Assembly (NCBI GenBank): GCA_009829735.1
Contig: CM020619.1
Coordinates: 12,391,777-12,455,776 of the forward strand
Source: Pyropia yezoensis
Taxonomy: Eukaryota; Rhodophyta; Bangiophyceae; Bangiales; Bangiaceae
DNA length: 64,000 nt
Reading direction: 5' to 3'
Position 1 is the first letter of the stretch; each line of letters opens with the position of its first letter. The notes below the pieces were generated by a model. That model did no database searches, was not told where the DNA came from, and saw only the letters and a list, made by a program, of their open reading frames with translations. This document shows positions 28,922 through 37,936 of this stretch, piece by piece. The position numbers and the translations under genes were made by a program.

Positions 28922-31900
28922 TTATGCGTGGCCACCCATCATGGACCGCATCCGCTCGGCCAGCTGCTCCATCGTCGCCACCTCCTCGTCGTACTTGGCC
29001 AGTCGCTCCGCGTCGGCGGCACGCTGCCGCTCGGGCACCTTGGCCGCGTACGCCGGCGCCGCCACGCGCGCGCGCGTCTTGTCGGCGAGCGCCCGCTTCT
29101 CCGCGGCGGCGGCGGTGAGCTTGGCCACCTCCACCGCAAAGTCCACCAGCCCCGACAGCTGCACGTGCACCGCCAGCGTGTCGCTGACAACCGCCACGGC
29201 GCTGCCCGGCGCAACCGCCGCAGGCGCGTCGTCGGTCGCGACCGTCGCGGAGACGGTGCCGAGGCCGGCCAGGGCGGCCACGTAGTCTGTCTCGACGGTG
29301 GGGGGGGGGGTGCCGCCGTCGCCCCCGCTGGTGACCACCACCACGTCGGGCCGCGCCGATGGGGGGAGGGAGTAGCTGGCCTTCAGCGACCGGCACGCGT
29401 GCACCAGTGTCGTGACCGTGTCCATAGCCGCCTCGGCAGCGGGGGATTGCCAGCCGTCGCGGGAGACGGGGAAGGGCGCCACCATGATGGACGGCACCGA
29501 CCGGGCAGCTGCGCCTGGCAGACGCTGGTACAGCTCCTCTGTCACAAACGGCATCATGGGGTGGAGTAGCCGCAGACCAACGTCCAGGCACTCGTACAAC
29601 ACGTGACGGGTGGCGGCCACGCGCGCCGCGTCGTCGGCGTCCGTGCCCGAGATGACGCGCTTGGCCAACTCCAAGTACACGTCGCACAGGTCGTAGAGCC
29701 AAAAGTTGTACGCCGCGCTCACCGCGTCGGCAAACGCGTACGTGGCAAACGCAGCGTTGACGGCCGCAACCGCAGCGTCCAGGCGTGAGAGAATCCAGGC
29801 GTCGGCAGTGACATTCGCCGCGCGAGCAGCGGCCAGACCGTCAGCCGACGGCACAAAGTCGTCACCCAGCTTGGCAAGCGCAAAGCGGGTTGCGTTCCAC
29901 AGCTTGTTGCAAAAGTTCCGGTAGCCGACAACGCGGCCCACATCCAGGTTGACGTCCCGGGTCTGAACCAGGTAGGCAAGAAGGCCAAAGCGCAACGCGT
30001 CAGCACCGCACTCGGGGATACCCGCGGGGAATTCTGCGCGGGTGGCGTCCGTGGCACGCGCCATCTCAGCGGGCGCCACGTTGCTGCCTGCTACCTTGGC
30101 GAGCATCCCCTCCAGCGTCGACCCCTCAATGACCTGCAAGGGGTCGACAACGTTGCCCAGAGACTTAGACATCTTGCGGCCGTGCTTGTCCCGCACCATC
30201 GGATGGAGGAAGACGGTTGAGAATGGCAGCCGCCCCGTCAGCGTCTGGCCAAACATCACCATCCGAGCCACCCAAAAGAAAATGATGTCGTGGCCCGTCT
30301 CGAGCAGCGTCGTCGGGTAGAAGGCGTCCATCTCCGAGTCGGCCTCCTCATTGGGCCAACCAAAAGATGAAAAGGGGAAGAGGCCAGACGAGAACCACGT
30401 GTCCAGCACGTCCTCGTCTTGCTTGAGCTCTACCGCAGCAAGCGCCTCAGGCGAGAGGCCCCCAGAGGCCACCAGCGCGGCTGCTCCCTCGTTGCCAGCG
30501 GCAGCAGCCTCGGCTAGCTGCTCTGGCAGCGCAGCGCGCGCTTCTGCCTCGTCACGACCGACAACCATGACCTCATCAGTGAGACCAGGTAGGAGCACAT
30601 GGTAGGCCGGGATGCGGTGGCCCCACCACAGCTGACGCGAAATACACCAGGGGTGGATCTCAGTCAGCCAGCTCGTCCATGTGGACCGGAACGACTTGGG
30701 CTGGATGTCCAGCTCCCCAGCGTGCAGGTCGCCCGACACACCCGCCTCACGCGCCGCCTTCACAGCCGCGGCCGCGTCTTCCTCAGAGTCCGTCTTCATC
30801 GCCGCTACCGCCCGCAGGGCCATCCCGCCACAGTTAACGTACCACTGCGGCAGCAGGCGTGGCTCAATGACGTCTCCCGTGCGAGAACAAACGCTGAGAA
30901 CCATCTTGTTGGGCTCCTTACCGCGGAGCAGGCCCTTGGCTTCAAGTGCCTTCTCAACAGCCACGCGCGCCTCATAGCGGCGCATGCCTGCAAATTCGGC
31001 GCCGTGCTCCGCATTGAACCGCCCGTCATCGTCCAACAGCGAAAAGGCAGGCAGTCCGTTGCGCTGGCCGCATTCAAAATCGTTGGCGTCGTGTGCGGGA
31101 GTGATCTTCACCGCGCCCGTCCCGAAGCCCATCTTGACCAAGATACCATCAGCAATGACCGGGATGGTGCGGTCTGCAAAAGGGTGCTGCAGGCGGCGGC
31201 CCACCAGGTGCGCGTATCGGGTGTCATCAGGGTGAACGGCGACGGCCACGTCGGCCAGCATCGTCTCCAGCCGGGTGGTGGCCACGACCAGCTCAGTGAG
31301 CTCGCCTTCAGCCGCCGCCGGGTCAGGCACGAAGCGGTAGGCAAAGTTGGTCAGCACCCCAAACTCGACCGGCTCGTCATGGTCGGGGACTGCTCGGAGG
31401 GTGCGTCCAGGGATCTCGACGCTGTCCACCTCAATACTGGACAGGGCAGTGCGGAGCTTGCAGCACCAGTGGACCAGTCGCTTCTTGCGATACACCAGCC
31501 GCTCCCCAGTCTTGCCGTCACGCATGTTGTACAGCCGGAAAAACGCCTCTGTGACGGCGTGGGACAGCTTGGGGGACAGCGTAAACTGCTCCCGGGACCA
31601 GTCCAGGGACGAGCCAACACGGCGCAGCTGCGAGCAGATCTGCGAGCCGAACTGCTCCTTCCACTTCCACACCTCCTCCACAAAGGCGGTGCGGCCCAGG
31701 TCATGGCGCGTGATCCCCTGCTCCCGCATCAGTTTTTTCTCGACCACCGCCTGCGTCGCGATACCCGCGTGGTCCACCCCCGGCACGTACAGCGCAACAC
31801 GGCCATGCATCCGGTGCCAGCGGGTGAGGGTGTCCTCCACCGCTGCCATGAGAGTGTGCCCCAGATGCAGGGAGCCCGTCACGTTGGGTGGCGGGATGAC

Positions 31901-32431
31901 CATGACAAACCGCCCATCTGGGCCGGCCTTGCGTCCTGCTTCAGCCGACGCTGAGAAGAAGCCCTCCTTCTCCCACCACTGGTACCAGGCAGACTCGACG
32001 GCACGTGGCTGGTAGGCCGCCGCCATAGGCGCGTCCATCCGCTTCTTCTCCCCCACGGGGGTGTCGTTGACAAACGACGCCGCATCGGCCGCATCCTTCG
32101 CAGCCAGGGACGCAATCTTTTTGGCAGCCCGCCCGCCGCCGCCCCCCTTCTTGGCAGCCCCCTTGTCCGCCGCCTTGCCGCCCGCGTCGGGGGCAGAGGC
32201 GGCTGCGTCGGCGCGGGCGGCCTTGCGGCGGGCAACGTCGGCCAGCTTGGCCAGCTTCTTTTGGCGTGACCGCGGCAGCGCCGCACGCTGCTCCTCCGTC
32301 ATTTTCAGGTACTCGTCCAGCTCCACGACCGGTGCAGCCGCGGGGGCGGCTGCAGCCGCCCCGTTGGCGTCGCCAGTTGACGCAGCGTCGACGGCGGCGG
32401 CCGCCGACGGCACCTCTGCATCGACGGCCAT
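28922..32431 (-). CDS. VARS: Valyl-tRNA synthetase
   Basis: A class Ia aminoacyl-tRNA synthetase that charges tRNA-Val and edits misactivated threonine. 1,169 residues from ATG at 32429-32431. After an Ala-rich, Lys-rich N-terminal extension (about 1-130) come the catalytic motif PPPNVTGSLHLGH (HIGH-type signature), the CP1 editing domain (VVATTRLETMLADVAVAVHP, GAVKITPAHDANDFE), DTWFSSGLFPFSSFGWP, the second signature GRKMSKSLGNVVDP, the anticodon-binding helical domain, and a C-terminal coiled-coil arm (LTAAAAEKRALADKTRARV; ERLAKYDEEVATMEQLAERM), which is typical of ValRS. Length fits eukaryotic ValRS (about 1,000-1,260). No introns inside the coding region. An in-frame upstream extension to 32581 starts only with GTG, so organelle dual targeting by that leader is not supported as it stands; an upstream exon is possible. 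Confidence 0.97.
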   Translation of the reverse strand: MAVDAEVPSAAAAVDAASTGDANGAAAAAPAAAPVVELDEYLKMTEEQRAALPRSRQKKLAKLADVARRKAARADAAASAPDAGGKAADKGAAKKGGGGGRAAKKIASLAAKDAADAASFVNDTPVGEKKRMDAPMAAAYQPRAVESAWYQWWEKEGFFSASAEAGRKAGPDGRFVMVIPPPNVTGSLHLGHTLMAAVEDTLTRWHRMHGRVALYVPGVDHAGIATQAVVEKKLMREQGITRHDLGRTAFVEEVWKWKEQFGSQICSQLRRVGSSLDWSREQFTLSPKLSHAVTEAFFRLYNMRDGKTGERLVYRKKRLVHWCCKLRTALSSIEVDSVEIPGRTLRAVPDHDEPVEFGVLTNFAYRFVPDPAAAEGELTELVVATTRLETMLADVAVAVHPDDTRYAHLVGRRLQHPFADRTIPVIADGILVKMGFGTGAVKITPAHDANDFECGQRNGLPAFSLLDDDGRFNAEHGAEFAGMRRYEARVAVEKALEAKGLLRGKEPNKMVLSVCSRTGDVIEPRLLPQWYVNCGGMALRAVAAMKTDSEEDAAAAVKAAREAGVSGDLHAGELDIQPKSFRSTWTSWLTEIHPWCISRQLWWGHRIPAYHVLLPGLTDEVMVVGRDEAEARAALPEQLAEAAAAGNEGAAALVASGGLSPEALAAVELKQDEDVLDTWFSSGLFPFSSFGWPNEEADSEMDAFYPTTLLETGHDIIFFWVARMVMFGQTLTGRLPFSTVFLHPMVRDKHGRKMSKSLGNVVDPLQVIEGSTLEGMLAKVAGSNVAPAEMARATDATRAEFPAGIPECGADALRFGLLAYLVQTRDVNLDVGRVVGYRNFCNKLWNATRFALAKLGDDFVPSADGLAAARAANVTADAWILSRLDAAVAAVNAAFATYAFADAVSAAYNFWLYDLCDVYLELAKRVISGTDADDAARVAATRHVLYECLDVGLRLLHPMMPFVTEELYQRLPGAAARSVPSIMVAPFPVSRDGWQSPAAEAAMDTVTTLVHACRSLKASYSLPPSARPDVVVVTSGGDGGTPPPTVETDYVAALAGLGTVSATVATDDAPAAVAPGSAVAVVSDTLAVHVQLSGLVDFAVEVAKLTAAAAEKRALADKTRARVAAPAYAAKVPERQRAADAERLAKYDEEVATMEQLAERMRSMMGGHA

Positions 32432-32882
32432 GATGACCAGCTGCAGACACCGGGCTTGGAACAGGCGAAGTCCCTGAGAAGGAGGCGCAGTCCTCAACGC
32501 TGCCTCCTTACCTAGCGCCGTCGACGGCCGCGCTGAGGATACACTGACGTGGCGAGTATTTGCGCGCAAACCACTGGTCACAAACTTACTGTACAGTACA
32601 GCATGAGTGACGTGGGTTGCCGTCAGTGCGTTCGAACTTTGTTAAGTACACTTTTCGAATTATGGGATCACTGACCATGATCAACTCCTCTTCAGCGGGC
32701 GGCGGTAGTCGGGGACCAGTAAGACGAGCGCATCCGCATCCATGTGCTACACGCTCCCCTCTCAGGCAGCGCTACTGCTTTGACAGACGACACCATCTGT
32801 CAGTCTCAGCTGTCTACCTCATTCTTGTTTGTTCGCTCCTGAACTCTTTCCCTCCTGAACTCTTTCCCTCCATCCCCTCTTC
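32432..32882. promoter_or_regulatory. Shared divergent promoter region of ValRS and RRP41
   Basis: 451 bp separate the start codons of two housekeeping genes on opposite strands. It contains an ACTGTACAGTACAG motif (32588-32601) and a pyrimidine-rich tract with a repeated CTCCTGAACTCTTTCC (32836-32870) just before the RRP41 start. On the minus strand CA/GTAAGT (near 32593-32600) and GTGTCTGCAG (near 32442-32451) could flank a leader intron of ValRS. Promoter role is inferred from gene orientation. Confidence 0.5.
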
Positions 32883-33734
32883 ATGGCTTCTTCGGGCGCC
32901 AAGAAGAAAGGCGGCATTGGCATCCGGGGCCCTGAGCACCTGTCACTGGGTGGCCTACGCGCCGACGGCCGGTTGCCCGCAGAGGCGCGGACAATGGTCA
33001 TCTCCCTGGGTGTCCTTCCACATGCTGATGGCTCTGCGGCCATCCGTCAAGGCAACACCTGGGTGCTCGCGTCGGTGAGTGGGCCCCACGATGAGCGCGG
33101 CGGTGGCGGTGGTGGGGGTGCTGGCGGCAGCGGCGGCGGCACCACGACGACTGCCACTGGTGTTCCACAAGGAGCCCACACCGAAGACGCTGGCCTCGTC
33201 CGCTGTACCGTCACCACCGCCCGTTTTTCCACCCCTGCCGGCCGCAAGCCGTCCGTCCGTAGCGGCGGGGACATTGCCGATGCGGTGGCGTCGACGTTTA
33301 CCGCGGTGGCCTTAACGGGCCTCTTTGGCCGCTCCATCGTGGACGTGCACGTGCAGGTACTGGTTGATGATGGCTGCGTGCGTTCCGCGGCGATCAACGC
33401 CACGGCTGCCGCTCTGGCCGATGCGGGAGTGGCCATGACGGACCTGGTGGCGGGCTGTGGGGTGGCCTTTGTGGGCGGGGTGGCACTCGTGGACCCGACA
33501 GCCGCCGAGACGGGGGGGGGGGAGGGGGGGGGGGGGCTGACGGCGGTCGTGGCGGTGGGCAGCGGGGATGTGGTCAGCGCCGACGTGGACGGCAAGATGG
33601 CCAGTGTGGGTGTGCTCGCCGAGGGGCTCGACGCCGCGAGCGTGGGGGCGGAGCAGGCGGCGTTTGCGATGAGGGAAGCGCTGCGGAAGTACACTCTGGG
33701 CTTGATAGACGCGCGGGGGCACGTTGCTTTTTAA
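32883..33734 (+). CDS. RRP41: Exosome complex component RRP41 (RNase PH fold)
   Basis: RRP41/EXOSC4 is one of the six RNase PH-like ring subunits of the RNA exosome, acting in 3'-5' RNA processing and decay in nucleus and cytosol. 283 residues from ATG at 32883. Family features in order: LRADGRLPAEARTM, the strand LPHADGSAAIRQGNTWVLASV with GPHDER, a Gly/Ser/Thr insertion (about residues 69-92), CTVTTARFSTPAGRKPS, DIADAVASTFTAVALTGLFG, VDVHVQVLVDDGCVRSAAINA, and ALADAGVAMTDLVAGC.VAFVGGVALVDPTA. The overall order and the VDVHVQVL.DDG and INA.A.ALADAG segments fit RRP41 better than RRP42, RRP43, RRP45 or MTR3. The Gly insertion is coded by an imperfect GGC/GGT tract and is probably a surface loop. 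Convergent with the next gene; stops are about 190 bp apart. Confidence 0.9.
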   Translation: MASSGAKKKGGIGIRGPEHLSLGGLRADGRLPAEARTMVISLGVLPHADGSAAIRQGNTWVLASVSGPHDERGGGGGGGAGGSGGGTTTTATGVPQGAHTEDAGLVRCTVTTARFSTPAGRKPSVRSGGDIADAVASTFTAVALTGLFGRSIVDVHVQVLVDDGCVRSAAINATAAALADAGVAMTDLVAGCGVAFVGGVALVDPTAAETGGGEGGGGLTAVVAVGSGDVVSADVDGKMASVGVLAEGLDAASVGAEQAAFAMREALRKYTLGLIDARGHVAF

Positions 33735-33923: not shown

Positions 33924-36099
33924 TCACATGGAGTAGGCCTGCGCAAACGTGTCTGGGTTGATCTTGTTCTTCTCCTCCACAGCGTGGCCCATGACAAACT
34001 CCTCCACCCGGTCCACGTCCTTACTGCTGCCAACAAACAGGGGCACGCTCATTTCAAACGACCACGCCGACAGCTCCAGCAGCGGGCGCTTGCCAACACT
34101 CGCCCGCCCGCCCGCCTGCCGCGCGACAAACGCCAGCGGGGCAGCCTCGGTGAGGTAACGCGCAAGGTCCGCCTTTTGCGGTCCCGGCAGCATCAGAATG
34201 CCCCCCCCAGTGAGCACCGAGTGGAAATTGGCCACCAAGTTGCCATTGTGGCGGAACACTTTGGTGGATCCTGGAGCCTCCAGCTCCGCCACGTACTCCG
34301 CGACACCCTCCACCACGTGCGGCAGCACCGCTGTATCCACAGAGTAGATGCGGCCCTCGTCGGGAGTGTGGATGTGCTGCGACGACAGCACAAAATGACC
34401 GCTAATGGTGTCCAGGGTGAACAGGTGGACGCCATAACCCATTGAGAAAACCAAGAAGGTCGATGCCCCAAACATGCAATACCCTGCTGCGACCTGCTCG
34501 TAGCCGGGACGCTGGAGCAGGTCCGCCGAGTCGCCCTCCTTGCCTGGCGCGGATTTCCGGTAGTAGACCGAAAAGGTGGAGCCCAGCGACGCACCAGGCA
34601 CACCCATCAGCGGGTTGAACACGACAATGTAGTTGCCGACGTCGGTGCCCGCCTCCAGCTCCATCACTTCGTTGGTCAGACTTGAAAAGATAAGGCAACA
34701 CAGACCCGACGACGCCAGGGACGCGTGGATCTGTTGGTTGGAAAACGCGGCAAGCGCAGAAAACTGGGCGTTCGGAGCATCGCACAGCTGCGCGCGCACG
34801 CACTTGTACGCAACGCCAAGCTCAGTAATGAGCAGAGACAGGTCATTGGAGCCATGGGGGAACTTGCGCTGCAGCTCAGTACAGAAGCGCTTGATCGTCA
34901 CCATAGGTCGGATTGCGTCCAGGTCGGGGTCGTCGTCCCGGTCGAATGACGGCGGAGGGATGTGCGCGGTCATGTCCGCCAAGGAGGACGTCTTACGCAG
35001 AGACATTGCCGCCGCGTTGGCTCCACGAGCAGCCGCCGACGCGGCCGTCGCATCTACGTCGCGCTGAATAAGAGCCGACGCGTCCTCCACCGACATGTAC
35101 GCAGGAACCGCCGACAGAGTGGTGTTGGCACAGTCATGGTTCTTGTGACTCACCTGGCCAGTGATCAGCTTGCGCCAAGCCTGGTGGCACTCTTCGATAA
35201 TCTCCAGTGCGTAGTGCGCCGGCTGCACTTGCTCCCGGAACGCGAACACATTGTGTGCCTTCCCGTCCGGCACCTTGTACGTACGAAACCATGAGAATGT
35301 CGCGTGGAGGAGGCCGGGGAGGACACGGTAGAGATCGTCAATGTCGTTCATCTCCGACGCCAGCCGGTCGTTGATGTCCACCACAATGACTTTCCAGTCC
35401 ATTTCCCCCTCGTCGATCATGCCGAGGACGCCCAGTACCTTGACCTGCTTCACTTCCCCAACCGTCGCAGCAGCCTTCCCAATCTCACAAACATCCAGAG
35501 GGTCCCCGTCGCCAAGAGCTCCCGTCTCCATGTGCACCTGGGACGGGTCCTCCCAGGTTTGCGGGAAACAGCCATAATTCCTGAACAGGGAAGCAACATT
35601 GGAGAGATGGGAGGACGCCCACGGCGGTCGCAGAGAGGCAACAGACGTACAGAGTCAGCACAAGGGCCGTCACAGAGTAAATGGCCAGCAAACAGAGGTG
35701 TCACGGAGACCAGCGGCAAATGCAGACCAGAGGCCCTCAAGCACACGACCAACCGACTCAACCCGTAACGCACCAAATGTAGCCCTTGTACGGGAAGACG
35801 TTGTGTACGAAGCGCTTCTTCCCCTTCTTCTCATCCTGCACAATGGGCGCCAGCGGGGCCTTCGTCTTCAGCTCCAGCTTAGCGTTGGTCCACCGCGGAA
35901 TTTCCACCACCATGTTGAACACATTCTTCTTCTTGTCTGCATACAGCGGGATGTCGTGCAGAGGGTTCACAGGTCCAAAGCCCTCCTTGTTGTAGTAAAT
36001 GCGGAAATCCCCGGTATCCGCGTCGGACGGATCCCGCACCTCCGTCAGCGTGTAGATGCCATCGCCCGTCTCAACCGCCCCCAGGTCCGAGCCTCCCAT
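33924..36099 (-). CDS. Fusion of soluble family I inorganic pyrophosphatase with a degenerate fructose-1,6-bisphosphatase domain (two exons)
   Basis: Exon 1 is 36099-35774 and exon 2 is 35580-33924; donor TTG/GTGCGT and acceptor TTCAG/GAAT give 660 residues. Residues 1-about 275 are a eukaryotic soluble pyrophosphatase (PPi to 2 Pi): [20 protein letters not shown], the splice-restored [16 protein letters not shown], the metal signature [18 protein letters not shown] and [10 protein letters not shown], with all usual catalytic Asp/Glu/Lys/Tyr present. A Ser/Ala linker (about 276-345) leads into an FBPase-like domain (about 345-650): [49 protein letters not shown] and [14 protein letters not shown]. 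There the metal site is lost: the family DPLDG reads NPLMG, the SEE before it reads SSL, and the SND reads SNQ. So this half is probably a non-catalytic sensor or scaffold. No targeting peptide is seen, so the cytosol is likely. I recall no described example of this fusion. Confidence 0.93.
35581..35773 (-). other. Intron in the pyrophosphatase domain
   Basis: 193 bp, GTGCGT donor and TTCAG acceptor on the minus strand. Removing it rebuilds the conserved [17 protein letters not shown] segment of family I pyrophosphatases, which neither exon encodes alone. Confidence 0.92.
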
Positions 36100-36718: not shown

Positions 36719-37936
36719 ATGTTCGTCTACGGGGACCTTGGCAAGGCTGCCAAGAGTGCGTTGATGTGTGGATCTTGCTGCGTACTGCGCAGTGTCGGGG
36801 GCCGCGTTTTGAGGGGTTTACGCGCTTGTCGCCGCTGCGGGTTTTTTCCGGCGTCAGCAGTGCAGTGTGAGTGGCGATCCGGTTTCACCCTGGTCGTGTG
36901 TACCTGTGAAGGTGCATTGAACCGCCCGGTGACCTTGATGGAGCCAGCTCGGGCACTAATACTGACGGTGGCGTGTTGATTATTGCACTTCCATCCTCTT
37001 TTGGCCGATGACCCTCCACTCGATGTGATTCACTGGTCTGGTCACCCCATCGGACTATGTGCGGTACTGCCGTGGGTTGATGAATCAATCTTGGCCCCTC
37101 GCCCCCTGACCACCTCTACGCCTTGGTTTCCACAACCGATAGAGCTGCTGACGGACAACTACACCTCGGATCAGAAGCTGACCTTCAAGACCACAACTGC
37201 CCAGAAGGTGACCTACACCGTCACTGGTGTGCAGGATGCGGACACCAACCTGATTGCCGGGGATGTGTCCATGAAGATGGGCGTGGCTGGCCACGCAGTT
37301 ACCACTAAGCTGTTTACTTCTGGCAAGCTGACGTCTGAGGTGACGCTCGACCGCCTCGGCGTGGAGGGCCTGTCTGTCAAGGTTCTGGGTGCGCTCTCCG
37401 ATTCGGGTGCTGCGTCTGCTGGGGCCAGCGCGGAGTGGAACACGCCGTCGGTTTCGGCGACGGTTGCGTCGGACCTGTCGTCCAAGCCCACTCTGCGGGC
37501 GACGGCGGTGGCGGGTCACGGCGGCGTCTATGTGGGCGGCGAGACGGCGTACGATACGGCGAAGAACGAGACTACCGTCGCGGATCTTTCCGTGAGCTAC
37601 GCGGACCGCTTCGAGTCGGAGATTAATGTGCAGCTCCTGAAGAAGGGCACGCGCGCTCTGCTGAGCTATGGCCACGAGGCTGCCCCGGGCTTTGCTGTTG
37701 CTGCCCAGTACGCGTATGACCTGAAGTCTCACGAGAGCGTGCTGACGGCGGGCACAAACACGCTGCTGGCCGATGGGGGGTCCTTCAAGGTCAAGGTCGA
37801 TTCGCTGGGCCTGCTGTCGGTGGCGCTGAAGCACACGCTGCACACCAACACGACGCTGGTGCTGAGCACGAGCGTGGACCTCAAGTCGGAGGTGAAGCAG
37901 ACGTCCAAGGTTGGGATTGCCCTCTGTATTGAATAG
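36719..37936 (+). CDS. VDAC: Voltage-dependent anion channel (mitochondrial outer-membrane porin), two exons
   Basis: VDAC is the 19-strand beta-barrel that passes metabolites across the mitochondrial outer membrane. Exon 1 is 36719-36755 (MFVYGDLGKAAK plus one base) and exon 2 is 37143-37936; the GTGCGT donor and GATAG acceptor give 276 residues, the normal family length. Exon 1 supplies the amphipathic N-terminal helix motif (Y.DLGK.AK), then LLTDNYTSDQKLTF with alternating polar and hydrophobic strands throughout, VSASVASDL-like strands, DRFESEINVQLLKKGTRALL, and the C-terminal beta-signal SKVGIALCIE used for insertion by SAM. Ser/Thr-rich composition and lower GC than the neighbouring repeats are normal for this family. 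Starting inside exon 2 would remove the helix, so the spliced model is preferred. Confidence 0.93.
36756..37142 (+). other. Intron of the VDAC gene
   Basis: 387 bp, AAGA/GTGCGT donor and ACCGATAG/AGCTG acceptor; phase 1. Splicing joins the N-terminal helix codons to the barrel and gives the standard length. Confidence 0.85.

Follow-up and report, generated by a model that had tools for sequence, protein, structure and literature searches.

Eukaryotic family I inorganic pyrophosphatases (PPases) of the yeast IPP1 type and class I fructose-1,6-bisphosphatases (FBPases; PF00316/PF18913) are the closest described counterparts of the two halves of a gene that we analyzed here from the red alga Pyropia yezoensis, within a stretch of 64,000 nucleotides of contig CM020619.1 (assembly GCA_009829735.1; herein referred to as the window). 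The first half of the encoded protein is homologous to the yeast enzyme (1huk) from residue 10 to residue 251 and shares its 14 active-site positions, whereas the protein as a whole adds a domain of ~300 residues and a linker. The second half is homologous to class I FBPases over the whole domain and keeps their effector loop and Tyr113; however, E97, D118 and D121 are missing from it, the catalytic dynamic loop is largely gone, and its score falls below the NCBIfam equivalog cut-off. Among PPases with additional parts, the trypanosomatid acidocalcisomal enzyme (5c5v, 5cuu), found here as a structure match, is a family I PPase whose extra part is presumably an N-terminal extension and not FBPase-like. 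Bacterial CBS-domain family II PPases carry an attached nucleotide-sensing regulatory module and may provide an analogy for how the algal protein works, with a catalytic fold and a regulatory domain that are both unrelated to those found here. No description of the fusion was found among the matches listed from open-licence PubMed Central papers, in keeping with an initial sequence-only reading of the window that knew of no published example; however, one NCBI entry (P0006) already names it, as 'inorganic pyrophosphatase fused with fructose-1 6-bisphosphatase [Gracilaria domingensis]'.

The single intron and the length given in that first reading were borne out by joining the exons, which yields 1983 nt or 661 codons including the TGA (660 amino acids; table 1). 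The intron has the termini GTGCGT...CTGTTCAG, and only one splice pair among the listed open-frame pairs restores the 15-residue PPase core signature. Exon 2 (551 amino acids) is one open frame in which PF00719 (123.2 bits, cut-off 23.5), PF00316 (96.7 bits, cut-off 34.8) and PF18913 (78.7 bits, cut-off 27) all pass, confirming the fusion of PPase and FBPase domains in one minus-strand gene; exon 1 alone scores 19.2 bits against PF00719, under the cut-off, as expected of a fragment. A 659-amino-acid database protein (P0001) is 99.4% identical to the window protein over 659 aligned residues and crosses both the intron and the linker positions without a break; its source tag is 'lgn', where the longest contig measures 2535 bases, and it probably derives from spliced RNA. 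With the linker in one open frame as well, the earlier view that no gene boundary falls within it stands. Both domains are also joined in P0036, P0038 and P0086, whose labels bear MMETSP, the mark of a transcriptome project. The two-domain gene is neither a chance product nor an assembly artefact.

Table 1. Features of the PPase–FBPase fusion gene, in window coordinates.
Feature	Position	Strand	Content or basis
Exon 1	35774..36099	-	Met1 to residue 108 plus 2 nt of codon 109; PPase domain, N-terminal portion
Intron (single, 193 nt, GTGCGT...TTCAG)	35581..35773	-	Exon joining; P0001 continuous here
Exon 2	33924..35580	-	Remainder of PPase, then linker and FBPase-fold domain up to the TGA
PPase domain, residues about 43-265, split by intron	35112..35973	-	14/14 active-site positions kept
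Linker, residues about 266-334	34905..35111	-	Sequence comparison with relatives
Conserved linker motif, residues 303-312, around Ser308	34971..35000	-	Phi-x-[R/K]-x-x-S-x-x-x-Phi
FBPase-fold domain (PF00316 and PF18913), residues about 336-640, without catalytic residues	33987..34901	-	Profiles and alignment
N-terminal effector loop, kept, residues 346-359, counterpart of FBPase AMP loop	34830..34871	-	Alignment
Site of shortened catalytic dynamic loop	34749..34781	-	Human residues 50-74, 25 residues; here 11
NPLMGVPG replacing metal-binding DPLDGSSN, then 4-residue deletion	34593..34616	-	Asp118 to Asn, Asp121 to Met

Seen from one window, the fusion could have been taken as particular to this species; instead, red algae and glaucophyte-like sequences share it as a conserved gene. 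Our searches gave at least 50 clusters with both PF00719 and PF00316 on one chain. A search with the FBPase part returned 85 proteins (P0001–P0085): both PF00719 and PF00316 are present in 48 of P0001–P0050, the exceptions P0043 and P0046 having the FBPase part only (they may represent a partial transcript and a truncated gene model; the name of P0046, a Cyanidiococcus protein, is 'inorganic pyrophosphatase' all the same), and no PPase domain is listed for P0051–P0085. Two more fusions, P0086 and P0087, were added from the best 120 of 1220 matches of a profile search, and a third search gave no further complete fusion among the matches listed (the best 120 of 3073). In each of these searches scoring was limited to the 8000 candidates with the most words in common, such that the number of two-domain clusters may be higher. 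Named organisms among these mostly red algal proteins include Gracilaria, Agarophyton, Porphyridium, Rhodosorus and Galdieria, and P0049 is suspected to represent a sister lineage of the red algae; no fusion is named as green plant among the matches listed. The gene name of P0087 (tig00000944_g5952.t1) has the style of a Cyanophora paradoxa gene named in PMC12449267, and for this reason we read it as a glaucophyte sequence; P0086 is 77% identical to it. Single profile scans with two short PPase peptides gave 11 pattern matches in prokaryote contigs and 31 in viral contigs, with no relative in either, which we regard as weak negatives.

The PPase half is complete, as first described: PF00719 passes, exon 1 matches 1huk residues 10–90 and a 160-amino-acid piece of exon 2 continues the match from residue 92 (E 2.7e-57). 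The yeast active-site positions E48, K56, E58, R78, Y89, Y93, D115, D117, D120, D147, D152, K154, Y192 and K193 are all unchanged in the fused proteins (43/43 or 44/44 of the rows with a letter there, 44-row alignment A2). Judged by these residues the active site is intact, and the PPase half is for that reason expected to hydrolyze PPi. The fusion protein probably serves as the principal PPase of the cytosol, because a search of the genome (by a family profile over six frames only) gave just one further PPase locus, L001, a 310-amino-acid frame whose N-terminus is of plastid type by eye.

The FBPase-fold assignment of the initial reading also stands, in that the full fold is recovered by profile (PF00316 98.6 bits, cut-off 34.8, and PF18913 79.8 bits, cut-off 27, for the domain alone; best solved-structure match 2gq1, E 8.8e-40); however, the loss of its catalytic residues had gone unremarked. 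We compared 49 fused sequences (the window protein; P0001–P0049 without P0043, P0046 and P0047; P0086 and P0087) with 33 stand-alone FBPases (P0051–P0084 without P0082), with human FBP1 aligned as well; the fused set includes N-terminally incomplete rows (such as P0006 and P0049) as well as P0001, nearly the same as the window protein, and P0050 was excluded on account of a C-terminus that appears to be out of frame. The metal ligands of FBPase include E97, D118, D121 and E280 according to PMC3785478. E97, E98, D118 and D121 are all absent in 48 of the 49 fused sequences and kept in every stand-alone enzyme; taken singly, E97, D118 and D121 occur in 0/49 and E98 in 1/49 (P0037), against 33/33 each. 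D74 (0/49 versus 33/33) and K274 (0/49 versus 32/33) are likewise lost, whereas the metal ligand E280 is retained in 43/49 fused and 32/33 stand-alone sequences and R243 in all of both sets. The stretch equivalent to human residues 50–74, which holds the catalytic dynamic loop (residues 52–72 in class I FBPases), spans 9–12 residues in 49/49 fused sequences and 25–26 in 33/33 stand-alone ones. Rows outside the two sets agree for the most part: P0043, P0046, P0047 and P0050 are likewise without E97, E98, D118 and D121, P0082 keeps all four, and P0085 (847 amino acids, 26% of the query covered, poorly aligned) reads E97 and E98 and not D118 and D121. Against the NCBIfam class 1 FBPase equivalog (NF006778) the domain scores 211.1 bits, below the cut-off of 368. 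The FBPase half looks catalytically dead, and we infer that it no longer hydrolyzes fructose 1,6-bisphosphate because the metal ligands, the catalytic loop and most substrate residues are lost.

The dead FBPase domain is nonetheless strongly conserved. With P0001 as a stand-in for the window protein, comparison with P0002, P0010 and P0020 gives 81.6–84.2% identity in the FBPase part and 77.7–83.5% in the PPase part, against 21.9–28.6% in the linker. The PPase is the better conserved half in deep comparisons, at 75–76% versus 55–58% for the FBPase part in P0040, P0042 and P0048 and at 64–65% versus 48% in P0086 and P0087. We then asked where this constraint falls, using 18 diverse fused and 18 stand-alone sequences and nine AMP-contact positions taken from PMC3785478. 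Among the fusions, the AMP-contact positions have a conservation of 0.876 against a domain background of 0.743 (resampling P 0.019, a modest value from a test that takes columns as independent and ignores kinship), and five metal positions lie at background (0.724, P 0.59); in the stand-alone enzymes the metal positions stand at 0.965 (P 0.002) and the AMP positions at 0.824 (P 0.13). A wider residue set points in the same direction (AMP-site constraint P 0.00085); of the two tests, we base our reading on the weaker one, with its positions from the paper. These values lean towards a shift of constraint from the metal site to the AMP-effector pocket, and the effector loop itself, QRxxPHG[S/T]N[D/E]L[S/A]LL, is among the well-conserved parts of the fused domain.

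The pocket has not been preserved unchanged. Ser31 is found in 46/49 and Tyr113 in 48/49 fused sequences, Lys112 is replaced by Asn in 48/49, position 28 (Gly28) is Asn in 46/49, and the Arg140 column holds Tyr in 46/49, in an alignment that may be off by one there. Mammalian AMP inhibition requires Ser/Thr31, Lys/Arg112 and Tyr113 (Gao et al., as quoted in PMC5639204), and the same paper describes a Leishmania FBPase with Asp112 that AMP still inhibits, weakly (Ki 63.8 uM). The notion of an intact AMP site was given up, Lys112 being Asn. Binding of AMP by the pseudo-FBPase is possible, though we do not predict it with confidence, and a phosphorylated ligand other than AMP is equally possible.

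The linker, described at first only as a Ser/Ala stretch, carries a conserved motif in red algae. Overall the linker is only 18–35% identical between P0001 and ten red-lineage relatives compared; Phi-x-[R/K]-x-x-S-x-x-x-Phi nevertheless occurs in 46 of 49 red-lineage linkers (P0001–P0050 without P0049) against 2.0 expected in shuffled linkers, a figure that carries no significance level because the sequences are related. P0026, one of the 46, first matched at an adjacent spot and has the motif too, and the three linkers without the full motif (P0038, P0041 and P0043) still have [R/K]-x-x-S. Ser308 is present in 41/41 aligned red-lineage rows. P0086, P0087 and P0049 do not have the motif, which is therefore not ancestral to all fusions. 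Its form resembles the substrate consensus of AMPK/SnRK1/CDPK kinases.

We hypothesize that the protein is a PPase with a built-in regulatory pseudo-FBPase effector domain, a reading to which we give a roughly even chance. Internal control of this kind would be the most economical model because the PPase is intact, the FBPase is dead but constrained, selection leans to the effector loop and the linker serine is conserved. In such a model the FBPase half would have been retained for oligomerization and effector binding. The effector pocket that survives between its helices 1 and 2 would bind a ligand, most probably an adenylate or some other phosphorylated metabolite; binding would alter the subunit arrangement and in this way tune the PPase to the cellular energy state. 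A likely second input, in red algae, would be phosphorylation of the linker serine that is conserved there. We infer the ligand, the direction of control, the phosphorylation and the cellular location of the fusion protein. Several observations sit uneasily with this model, namely the altered AMP site (Asn112 and the changes at positions 140 and 28), the retention of E280 mostly and of R243 wholly from the old active site, the modest result of the constraint test and the missing linker motif in P0086, P0087 and P0049. The sequence-only reading had suggested that PPi hydrolysis is coupled to a carbon-status signal; regulatory coupling is still the best kind of reading, but energy status would fit better, because the adenylate effector pocket is kept better than the metal and sugar-phosphate site. 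We know of no other case of PPase regulation by a pseudoenzyme module. Whether reactions of UDP-glucose, of floridean starch and of PPi-dependent glycolysis run forward or backward is set by the level of PPi, and starch synthesis in red algae is cytosolic; a regulated cytosolic PPase in these organisms would be an unexpected control point, and the fusion would be a clean natural case of catalysis lost with a regulatory site still under selection.

High conservation without catalytic residues would also be expected if the FBPase fold served as a scaffold, making a higher PPase oligomer or stabilizing or docking the PPase with no small effector bound. R243, a residue that extends into the adjacent subunit in canonical FBPase, is invariant among the fusions, and several fusion-specific invariant residues (including H504, P576 and W615) lie outside the effector loop; however, a scaffold leaves the conserved effector loop and Tyr113 unexplained, although helix packing might account for both, and we consider this explanation unlikely without dismissing it. 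Distinctly less probable in our view is a dead active site that still binds fructose 6-phosphate, fructose 1,6-bisphosphate or fructose 2,6-bisphosphate and reports carbon status, which is close to what was first proposed: E280 and R243 are accompanied by G122 in 47/49 and Y244 in 11/49 fused sequences, but K274 and Y264 (0/49 each), N212 (3/49), Y215 (1/49), S124 (1/49) and N125 (0/49) are nearly all gone, the dynamic loop is shortened and the metal and catalytic-pocket positions are conserved no better than background.

The remaining two alternatives were rejected. A bifunctional enzyme hydrolyzing PPi and fructose 1,6-bisphosphate on one chain is suggested by the two sets of Pfam domains over their cut-offs and by the JGI name of P0012, 'fructose-1,6-bisphosphatase/inorganic pyrophosphatase'; the loss of the metal ligands E97, D118 and D121 and of the loop region in all 49 fusions, with which the four left-out fused rows agree, together with the shortfall against the NCBIfam equivalog and the presence elsewhere in the genome of further FBPase frames in which DPLDGSSN is intact (L003, L004 and L005), makes it very improbable. 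An erroneous join of two neighboring genes, through misassembly or a missed stop or intron, might have been entertained for an observation first made in one genome window, with P0043 and P0046 having the FBPase part only, but its probability is close to nil given the open frame of the linker and the breadth of the architecture, which includes 50 clusters with both domains on one chain and transcriptome-labelled relatives among them.

To place the fusion in an evolutionary context, we consider the trees of both domains. In the FBPase-domain tree (48 rows), 18 fused domains form one side of a branch (support 99/98, 200/200 bootstrap trees), within which the glaucophyte-like pair splits first, then P0049 (98/84) and then the red-lineage rows; long branches (L010, the SBPase-like outgroup and P0049) make this branching order less sure than the grouping. 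The PPase tree (60 rows, quick method, no bootstrap) likewise unites the 18 fused domains in one group (99), apart from 41 other PPases, without resolving which of P0049, the glaucophyte-like pair and the red-lineage rows branched first. The simplest reading of these topologies would be one fusion event before the split of the sampled lineages. More tentatively, and in our view less likely than not, a eukaryotic PPase may have captured an FBPase ahead of the divergence of red algae and glaucophytes, with the catalysis of the FBPase lost and its allosteric pocket kept, giving rise to an energy-charge sensor controlling cytosolic PPi to which red algae later added the linker kinase site. If so, the fusion would be a rare genomic marker for early plastid-bearing eukaryotes (presuming that it was never gained or lost in green plants), and further-degraded remnants would survive in other lineages (P0162, P0164 and P0170). 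How Archaeplastida branched early on is disputed, and a derived fusion shared by red algae and glaucophytes would be relevant to that question.

These three proteins are PPases of 401–427 amino acids with C-terminal tails like a degraded FBPase N-terminal domain, which were first picked out by eye and then tested. Among 111 further proteins (P0088–P0198) they alone match the fused-FBPase profile at E < 1 (0.005–0.024; next best 3.4, best reversed control 9.1), and their tails keep a helix and the effector-loop sequence (SPHGVSDLS, HPHGRSSLS). Profile comparison gives 93.7% probability against the fusion alignment A2 and 15% against stand-alone FBPases; Pfam reports no FBPase in the tails and a PDB search returned nothing. 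We treat them as a weak lead to possible FBPase-domain remnants.

Elsewhere in the same genome, L010 (C2:5351591-5352079) is a stand-alone, highly diverged FBPase-like frame of 422 amino acids. Its branch in the FBPase-domain tree is very long (2.46) and groups with the fused domains (99/97); it scores 134.5 bits with the fusion profile, somewhat above the 115.5 bits of the stand-alone profile. In L007 (C3:20913400-20913894) and L008 (C2:13038566-13039063), two further FBPase-like frames of this genome with the C-terminal tails RRSRSID and RRTHSID, DPLDGSSN is replaced by DPLTGLADPP (Asp121 to Thr) and the dynamic loop is shortened, yet E97, D118 and E280 are kept; both are possibly further pseudo-FBPases. 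P0088, P0157 and P0158 are tandem double PPases with two PF00719 stretches per chain. Four proteins (P0035, P0036, P0037 and P0038) have Lys/Arg-rich N-terminal extensions that are NLS-like by eye, and the window protein is without one. The frames neighboring the fusion gene are ordinary: on the minus strand a class I aminoacyl-tRNA synthetase, of valyl type by eye (28922-32641), and on the plus strand an RNase PH family protein with Gly-rich runs (32859-33734) and a eukaryotic porin (Porin_3; 36980-37936).
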